A stretch of 13,411 bases of DNA from Deltaproteobacteria bacterium RIFOXYA12_FULL_61_11 (GTDB lineage Bacteria; Bdellovibrionota_F; JAHFAK01; YA12-FULL-61-11), in the NCBI GenBank assembly GCA_001799195.1, contig MGSU01000336.1, positions 24,718-38,128 on the forward strand. The letters run 5' to 3'. Numbering within the stretch: position 1 is the stretch's first letter; the number at the start of each line of letters is the position of its first letter. The position numbers and the translations under genes are program-made. The notes under the pieces are model-generated. The model did not search any database. It worked only from the letters and a program-made list of their open reading frames with translations, and was not told the origin of the DNA. Positions 3,353-7,676 of this stretch are shown here, in pieces.

Positions 3353-3389
3353 GCTCGCCGGTCCTGCCGTATGGTGATCTCACGGCGAG
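3353..3389. terminator. Inverted repeat between convergent gene ends
   Basis: CTCGCCG (3353-3359) and CGGCGAG (3383-3389) form a perfect 7-bp inverted repeat around the 37-bp gap between the convergent aminotransferase and Cys-repeat genes. The right arm falls inside the end of the latter. The loop of 23 bases is long and there is no T tract, so this is at best a weak bidirectional terminator. Confidence 0.2.
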
Positions 3390-4846
3390 GAGGTGTTCTC
3401 GCAGCGGGATCGATGGGGTTGAGGGAAGTAGCCGCAGCTCGCCCGTAGTACCTCCGGACGACGGCCCTGGAGTTCTCGGACATATCCGAGCAAGGTTTCG
3501 AGACAGTCCTCGCGGTAGGCCGGAAGTTCCTCGCACAGGGCACGTCCTTCTGGCAGGTGGTGTACGAACGGGAAGAGAATGCTCTGGAAGAAGGCTCGGT
3601 AGCAGAGCGGCCTCTCGGGTTCCTCGAACGCCTCGCATTGGCTGATCGTTTCTGGTCGAACACCGTCGAGGAACAGTCGATCGGCCATGGCCAGGACCAT
3701 GCCGCTCCTCTGCTCGTCCCGCCACCAGGGAGGGATGGCGTCTCCTTCGGCCGCGACCTTTCTCCCGGTTGGGGGAGAGAGGTACCCCGAACCCCGGGCT
3801 ACACCGCGTTGACAGGCTTCGGCCTGGTCTGTCCCCTCCAGCGAAGCACAGGTGGCCAGAGCACGAGCAGTGGGCCAGGTGCGGAGAAGGATGAACTGCT
3901 CGCCGAGTACTCCGTAGCAATTGGAGTCGAGGACCTTGGCACCGAGGATCCGACACAGCTCGAGCACCATCTCGGTGTTCGGTAACAACCTGGCCACGTG
4001 GTCCACGCAGTGGTAGTTCTCTATCTCGTCTGAGCGACGGCACAAGGCGGCAAGCTCGGCGAGGTGTTCGGCGGGAGCCTCCAGGGCCAGTTCGTCGGCG
4101 AGGTTATAGTAACATTCTGACCGAAAAGAGGGATCGAAGATATCGGCGCATCCCCGTTCCAAGTTCTGCAGGTACGCTGGAGCCCCTCCCCGGTCTCCGC
4201 GCGTGAGTAAGGAGGCGACGACGAGATAGTAGGCGCATTCGCTGGCCTGGGGCTCGGGAAACTCGGTCCGGCAACGCTGGAGTTCCTCGAGGAGCACCGG
4301 CCCTGCATGCTTCGCTAGCTCGAGGTAACGGCAGACCGATACCTCGGCGGTCGTACCGTATCGACCGCAACCAGGCTGGTCAGGAAGGGCCACGCTCGGG
4401 GTGTAGTGCTGACGATAGGTGAGGAAACGGTGCATGTGCGGACGGATCTGCACGCGCATGCACAGATAGCCGAGGACAGGGGAGGAGATCTCGGCGCAGG
4501 GGTCCTGTTGCTCGCGCTTCCTGAGGTTTTGGTTGCTGAGACTCAAGAAACAGTGATCGCGCTGCTGGAGATCTCGGATGGAACGGCAAAGTTCGACCCG
4601 GTCGGCGCTGATCGCCAAGTCGGCCAGGCACCTGTCTCTGACAATCCCGTGCTTCTCTCTACAGAGGGTCCCCTGGGAGGAGGTCTGAGTAGGGGGGGCC
4701 CCGAACAGCCATCCCAACAGCGCGAGCAGGAGCACACCCAGGCCCGAGGCGAGCAGCCGTCCGCGATGCGAACGGAGCATGCTGCCGAAAGAACGACCTT
4801 TAGCGGACACAGGCAAGTGCTGCCAAGGCCTGCGCCGTGGCTTCAT
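3380..4846 (-). CDS. Membrane-anchored protein with twelve paired-cysteine helical repeats
   Basis: This 488-residue protein has a basic N-terminus and one membrane segment (about residues 31-50), after which the chain should lie outside the cytoplasm. It has exactly 24 cysteines, all in pairs: 62/73, 87/99, 117/129, 160/172, 192/204, 233/245, 269/280, 298/310, 333/345, 404/415, 438/448 and 471/482, each pair separated by 9 to 11 residues. Around the second cysteine a loose motif recurs: R/D/E-x(1-2)-C-Y/L/F-x2-L-A (RDRCLADLA, RSECYYNLA). This predicts an alpha-hairpin solenoid stapled by disulfides. I do not recognise a named family and assign no function. The ATG at 4846 has GGAGAA seven bases upstream and overlaps the preceding gene by 47 bp. 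The frame stays open to 5359, but that part is only a shadow of the 196-residue gene. ATG 4780 is a less likely start. Confidence 0.9.
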   Translation of the reverse strand: MKPRRRPWQHLPVSAKGRSFGSMLRSHRGRLLASGLGVLLLALLGWLFGAPPTQTSSQGTLCREKHGIVRDRCLADLAISADRVELCRSIRDLQQRDHCFLSLSNQNLRKREQQDPCAEISSPVLGYLCMRVQIRPHMHRFLTYRQHYTPSVALPDQPGCGRYGTTAEVSVCRYLELAKHAGPVLLEELQRCRTEFPEPQASECAYYLVVASLLTRGDRGGAPAYLQNLERGCADIFDPSFRSECYYNLADELALEAPAEHLAELAALCRRSDEIENYHCVDHVARLLPNTEMVLELCRILGAKVLDSNCYGVLGEQFILLRTWPTARALATCASLEGTDQAEACQRGVARGSGYLSPPTGRKVAAEGDAIPPWWRDEQRSGMVLAMADRLFLDGVRPETISQCEAFEEPERPLCYRAFFQSILFPFVHHLPEGRALCEELPAYREDCLETLLGYVRELQGRRPEVLRASCGYFPQPHRSRCENTSSP

Positions 4847-5390
4847 GGGGTTCTCCGGTGGGCAGGAACACCTCAACCTGGAAGAGGCGTCCGGTGGCGC
4901 TGCAGCGGATGAAGGCGAGGAGGGACCTGTACCTGATCGCGGCCTCCTCGCACACTCCATAGGTAAGACGCTCGGTGGCGTGGAGGAGATAGAGAAGATG
5001 GGGTTGCTCTGCAAGGAGTTGCGGCTTGAAGCGTTCGTCGCAGTGGATATTGCGCGAGAGTGCGCCGGGATAGGGGGAACGCAGGCTCCGGTACATCGCG
5101 TGGAGGGCGAAGAGGCGTTCCTTGAGAATCTTGTCCTGAGCTTCGACTCCGAGCTCCTCCCAAACGGTGATTTTGCAACGCCGCTCAGCCGCGTGACCGA
5201 AATACTGGGCCTTCCCGGTACCGGACAGGCTCTCGTCGAGGATGAACTCGTCGAGCAGGGGCCCGGTGAGCCCGGGCAATACCAAAGAGAGCAGACGTTG
5301 CCGATGGAGGAAATACCAGCCCGAGAAGGCCAGGGCGAGCAGGCTGAGAAGGAGGGCAACGAGCCCTAGTACCTTGGATCGAGGACTCAT
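4800..5390 (-). CDS. Single-pass membrane-anchored protein of unknown function
   Basis: The product has 196 residues. A short basic N-terminus (MSPRSK) leads into one hydrophobic helix (about 7-29), so it is probably an inner-membrane-anchored protein with a domain of about 165 residues outside the cytoplasm. That domain has five cysteines (72, 117, 147, 163, 194) with no regular spacing, unlike the protein encoded next. It is rich in charged and leucine-containing helices and I recognise no family. The start is well supported: AAGGAGGAGG lies just upstream of the ATG at 5390, the best ribosome site in this stretch. The last 47 bp overlap the beginning of the Cys-repeat gene, so the two are almost certainly co-translated and may work together, perhaps as a complex. 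A 224-bp non-coding gap with direct repeats lies upstream. Confidence 0.9.
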   Translation of the reverse strand: MSPRSKVLGLVALLLSLLALAFSGWYFLHRQRLLSLVLPGLTGPLLDEFILDESLSGTGKAQYFGHAAERRCKITVWEELGVEAQDKILKERLFALHAMYRSLRSPYPGALSRNIHCDERFKPQLLAEQPHLLYLLHATERLTYGVCEEAAIRYRSLLAFIRCSATGRLFQVEVFLPTGEPHEATAQALAALACVR

Positions 5391-7369: not shown

Positions 7370-7676
7370 AGGTGGCAGGAACAGTGGCGTCGACGGTCGT
7401 CGGAGCCGGGGGAGGCGTGGGTGGCGTCGCTGCGGGGTCAGGCTTCTCGTCGGTACCGCTCTCCTTCTTGGTCGATTCGGCCGCCTTGGAGGAGGATCCC
7501 TTGCCGTAATCCGTGACGTACCAGCCCGTACCCTTGAGGTGGAAGGCTGACCTGGAAACCAGTTTCTCGACCTTTCCCCCGCAATGGATACACCGTTCCA
7601 GCGGTTCGTCGGTGATCCTCTGCAAGAATTCGAAGACATGACCGCGTTCTTTGCAGCGATACTCGTAGATGGGCAT
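7368..7676 (-). CDS. FmdB-type zinc-ribbon protein with one cysteine replaced
   Basis: The product has 102 residues and begins MPIYEYRC, the hallmark of the FmdB/CxxC_CxxC_SSSS family, small proteins of uncertain role often called putative regulatory proteins. Family members normally have two CxxC knuckles. Here the second is intact (C29-I-H-C32) but the first reads C8-K-E-R11, so the expected fourth zinc ligand is arginine (codon CGC, one base from TGC). His13 could substitute; this is inference. The rest, [12 protein letters not shown] (48-59) followed by a serine patch, is canonical, and the tail from residue 65 is charged and then proline/threonine-rich. The ATG at 7676 has GGAGG upstream. 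An upstream extension to 7712 is unlikely because the family N-terminus starts at this methionine. It lies between two membrane glycosyltransferase-like genes. Confidence 0.93.

Follow-up and report, generated by a model that had tools for sequence, protein, structure and literature searches.

The paired-cysteine repeat gene lies on the minus strand of the window, the 13,411-nucleotide stretch of Deltaproteobacteria bacterium RIFOXYA12_FULL_61_11 that was analyzed, and is the last gene of a minus-strand cluster that also encodes a 196-residue anchored protein and two multi-spanning proteins (Table 1). The reading frame has good coding potential (GC3 0.73 over GC2 0.48) and two candidate starts. 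The ATG at 4846 has a CGGAGAA stretch just upstream and creates a 47-base overlap with the 196-residue gene; the paralogs have short N-termini, which the ATG at 4780 would match. With either start, the first cysteine comes after a basic segment and a single hydrophobic stretch. The 196-residue protein matches no known family in Pfam; its gene occurs once more in the genome, immediately ahead of a PMT_2-like glycosyltransferase gene, and is absent beside the other three cysteine-repeat genes. By eye, the two multi-spanning proteins resemble GT-C glycosyltransferases (Pfam support is weak in one and absent in the other), and an FmdB-type zinc ribbon protein (PF09723) is encoded between them at 7371-7676 (-). 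From the glycosyltransferase-like neighbors one might guess at a role near surface-glycan assembly; the hint is thin, because the other cysteine-repeat copies lack the 196-residue neighbor.

Table 1. Coordinates of the cysteine-repeat gene, its parts, and the adjoining upstream gene in the window
Feature	Coordinates	Strand	Basis or remark
Paired-cysteine repeat protein	3380..4846	(-)	488 aa from ATG 4846; 466 aa from ATG 4780
Upstream 196-aa gene	4800..5390	(-)	Single membrane anchor; with ATG 4846, overlaps the start of the cysteine-repeat gene
Single N-terminal membrane anchor (LLASGLGVLLLALLGWLF)	4703..4756	(-)	Read from sequence; layout common to all paralogs
Twelve-pair C-x(9-11)-C array	3401..4663	(-)	Cysteine positions
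RPHM	4433..4444	(-)	Just after pair 3; invariant in all four paralogs
Five repeats (pairs 5-9), predicted as ten helices	3767..4312	(-)	AlphaFold2, pLDDT 82.4, pTM 0.74
SEC-Y-Y-N-LADE	4091..4120	(-)	Pair 6, second cysteine; most conserved stretch of the family
Repeat with both cysteines lost	3638..3811	(-)	Alignment; pair present in L002, L003, L004

An earlier note on this DNA described an array of twelve cysteine pairs, and both the count and a randomization bear this out. The 24 cysteines of the 488-residue form fall into exactly twelve disjoint C-x(9-11)-C pairs with none left over (62/73, 87/99, 117/129, 160/172, 192/204, 233/245, 269/280, 298/310, 333/345, 404/415, 438/448, and 471/482), and every one is C-terminal to the single hydrophobic stretch; random placement of 24 cysteines in the mature part yielded a maximum of nine such pairs in 200,000 trials. 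Spacing within pairs is nearly fixed (x9 once, x10 four times, x11 seven times); the gaps between pairs vary from 14 to 59, and the repeat spacing is irregular, from 25 to 43. The recurring motif that the note placed after the second cysteine is real but loose. Among 48 repeats from the family and from a protein of a second genome, G181 (discussed below), position +1 is mostly Y, L, or F, position +4 is L in 15, position +5 is A in 16, and R is found at -3 in 18, yet the literal “L-A” occurs in few of the window protein's own twelve repeats.

The source genome (4.64 Mb, 87% complete) contains three diverged paralogs, on contigs C158, C340, and C342 (31, 30, and 20% identity, respectively), each with an N-terminal anchor. 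A matrix of 13 repeat sites in four proteins, read by hand from the paralog alignment, has both cysteines in 44 of its 52 cells, neither in seven, and a single cysteine in one; the paralogs thus keep or lose pairs as units with one exception, in agreement with the proposal that the pairs are conserved together. Independent loss predicts about eight single-cysteine cells in 49, the truncated N-terminal pair being left out, whereas at most one is observed (P(≤1) = 0.0014, with relatedness left out of account). Between pairs 9 and 10, the 59-residue gap corresponds by alignment to a repeat that has lost both cysteines. Conservation within the family is highest in SEC-x-x-x-LADE, at pair 6, and in RPHM, which follows pair 3 and is a candidate functional patch.

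The absence of unpaired cysteines holds for the window protein and for the copy at L002. However, L003 has one unpaired N-terminal cysteine and one extra cysteine, and in L004 one pair is broken and five cysteines are unpaired, so that “no unpaired cysteine” is not a strict rule of the family. The gene at L004:1270-2694 (G000:C342:6538-8025), the fourth paralog, has a GC3 of 0.40 versus about 0.8 in neighboring genes, and this low value together with the five unpaired cysteines may reflect either foreign origin or relaxed constraint. Two genes upstream of the L003 paralog, L016:12083-13117 (-) encodes a secreted-looking protein with ten cysteines, several of them about 10-12 apart, and no Pfam match.

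Structure prediction places each cysteine pair across one helix-loop-helix turn in all five of the repeats modeled by AlphaFold2 (pairs 5-9; 182 residues, single sequence with no alignment depth). In every one of the five predicted hairpins, the first cysteine is positioned 1-3 residues before the end of a helix, and the second lies in the next helix, 1-6 residues from its start. The full putative periplasmic part, folded alone, is predicted to be all-helical at low confidence (pLDDT 59, pTM 0.45), and most of the other pairs in this weak model are likewise located at a helix end and the start of the next helix. Foldseek returned no structural match at E≤0.001, and VIA matched designed repeats and VPS35 at Z scores of 8-10, values within the background for helical repeats. 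The structural matches are alpha/alpha repeat solenoids in general, none of them specific, and Hcp/Sel1 structures are absent among the matches listed.

The anchor is preceded by a basic segment, which indicates an orientation with the N-terminus inside and the C-terminus outside. Two VKOR-domain proteins are encoded in the same genome; one VKOR gene continues in frame into a DsbA-like CPHC stretch, and in the other the beginning of a comparable region is visible. ExbB/ExbD-like and TonB-related genes, read from the sequence near the C342 copy, suggest a cell with two membranes. The VKOR genes and these signs of two membranes make extracytoplasmic disulfide formation plausible. Of the suggestion that an anchor places the protein in an oxidizing compartment, the anchor itself is seen and the oxidizing enzymes are encoded; the periplasmic side of the cysteine-repeat protein, like the disulfides, is what we infer. 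Because pairs are lost together, the modeled staples join helix ends, and VKOR genes are present, the reading of the protein as membrane-anchored, disulfide-stapled alpha-hairpins is well supported, and this predicted structure can be considered very probable.

Searches of Pfam, NCBIfam, PHROGs, and PDB sequences (including a PDB profile search) gave no match bearing on the window protein, and a literature search found no account of any C-x(9-11)-C hairpin repeat family, as expected from the note's statement that no named family has this arrangement. The build of this nameless family resembles that of the Helicobacter Hcp proteins. HcpB and HcpC are exported alpha/alpha solenoids in which one disulfide per repeat clips the helix ends around the loop (PMC3851747, PMC2581425). 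These proteins consist of Sel1-like repeats (PF08238), and their staple from helix end to helix start is predicted for the window protein as well, in each of the five modeled repeats. The intra-repeat cysteine spacing of Hcp proteins is x7, in contrast to x9-x11 in the window protein, which also carries a membrane anchor where Hcp proteins have a cleaved signal, and repeats spaced 25 to 43 residues apart; relative to the 36-38-residue alpha/alpha solenoid repeats of Sel1, an alpha/alpha arrangement is predicted here with irregular spacing. A much-diverged Sel1-like (Hcp) protein, truly homologous to that superfamily, would account for the matching disulfide logic predicted here, the aromatic residue after the second cysteine, and an average repeat near 34-36. 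Yet the Sel1 profile has no match at E≤1 in the window protein or any paralog, whereas the same model easily finds two ordinary Sel1 proteins (C202, C194) in the same genome, which makes the negative result informative. Homology to Sel1/Hcp is accordingly unlikely, and the note's description of the protein as Sel1-like in concept with different spacing stands.

Two other classes of cysteine-rich protein were compared and set aside. Twin CX9C (CHCH) proteins are disulfide-held helical hairpins, as predicted for the window protein, with cysteine pairs about nine residues apart. Each CX9C of a CHCH protein lies within one helix and the bonds cross between two helices, whereas the two cysteines of a pair in the window protein are predicted to be in different helices; the window protein has only one x9 pair, a modeled loop between paired cysteines, and no Pfam match. 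A multihaem cytochrome does not fit a protein with no CxxCH and a smallest cysteine-cysteine spacing of 10.

Cysteine pairs that bind a metal (zinc, copper, or an Fe-S center) rather than forming disulfides would make use of the 24 cysteines, and the invariant RPHM would supply histidine and methionine usable by copper. However, both CxxC and CxxCH are absent from the window protein, the predicted location of the pairs at the helix ends of separate hairpins would provide two ligands per site, and the pairs are lost independently of one another; metal binding is highly unlikely. Least probable of all are bonds from the second cysteine of one repeat to the first of the next, or between chains to form a covalent polymer, for although CagY repeats form disulfide-dependent multimers (PMC2581425), under the next-pair scheme 15 cysteines of the four paralogs would be orphans, versus 1 under within-pair bonding, and the inter-pair distance is variable.

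The best explanation as a whole, with a probability of roughly 0.7, is a periplasm-facing, disulfide-stapled alpha/alpha solenoid scaffold that works in the manner of Hcp/Sel1-like proteins. This would be a single-pass membrane protein whose large outward part is a solenoid built from roughly thirteen helix-loop-helix repeats; in twelve of these, one disulfide would clip the end of helix A to the beginning of helix B. After synthesis the protein would be exported with its N-terminus inside; VKOR/DsbA-type enzymes of the cell would oxidize it in the periplasm, and the disulfides would lock the solenoid as a stable rod or superhelix that resists proteases. The solenoid surface would then act as a protein-protein scaffold, with the invariant patches RPHM and SEC..LADE as the likeliest sites; this function is put forward tentatively. 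In 2008, disulfides within repeat arrays were reported to be very rare (PMC2581425). The middle region of CagY, an envelope protein, has tandem alpha-helical repeats with regular cysteines (PMC2581425), as the window protein is predicted to have at a putative envelope location; the CagY repeats are 38-39 residues long and derive from direct DNA repeats, whereas those of the window protein are highly diverged. The family would add to the very few naturally stapled helical repeats known (Hcp, possibly CagY). Rigid scaffolds that depend on oxidation are one use for such proteins; they would also allow study of how twelve disulfides in a row are handled by a periplasmic oxidase, and the two conserved patches are concrete sites for functional tests.

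The distribution of the family is sparse. The other examined genome of the phylum/class (two in all) has no copy, tblastn against plasmids found no relative, and neither did scans of genome contigs and viral contigs, which are weak negatives because few short peptide patterns were used. A single-repeat profile run over 386 genomes (the source and 385 others) gave only one other multi-repeat match, in G181, a member of another small phylum. The G181 protein (L009, 278 aa), present in one of seven examined genomes of its phylum, has an N-terminal anchor and seven C-x(9-11)-C pairs with no unpaired cysteine; it is shorter than the family members, has a near-constant inter-pair gap of about 20, and lacks RPHM. 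The hhalign comparison with the family (probability 86, E 5e-6, a score that shared cysteine spacing could inflate) supports a relation, and the protein may be either a homolog or a look-alike. An unnamed superfamily of C-x(9-11)-C stapled hairpins, independent of Sel1/Hcp in origin, found in several little-known phyla and expanded to four envelope scaffolds in this genome, is conceivable but somewhat doubtful.

At L009 (G181:C71), the gene for the anchored protein adjoins a lipoprotein-like gene, and both encode the same paired cysteines. In another genome, L010:298-1695 encodes an anchored, cysteine-rich protein with HEYAHGIG and CVHGMGHG-type histidine motifs and no significant Pfam match. 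Elsewhere the single-repeat profile gave mostly isolated matches at chance level, with an exception in pattern in G138. This 384-residue open frame (L046:3-1154) has no Pfam family above cut-off and is probably an independent case; it is proline-rich, and its 28 cysteines form 14 highly regular C-x(8-11)-C pairs.
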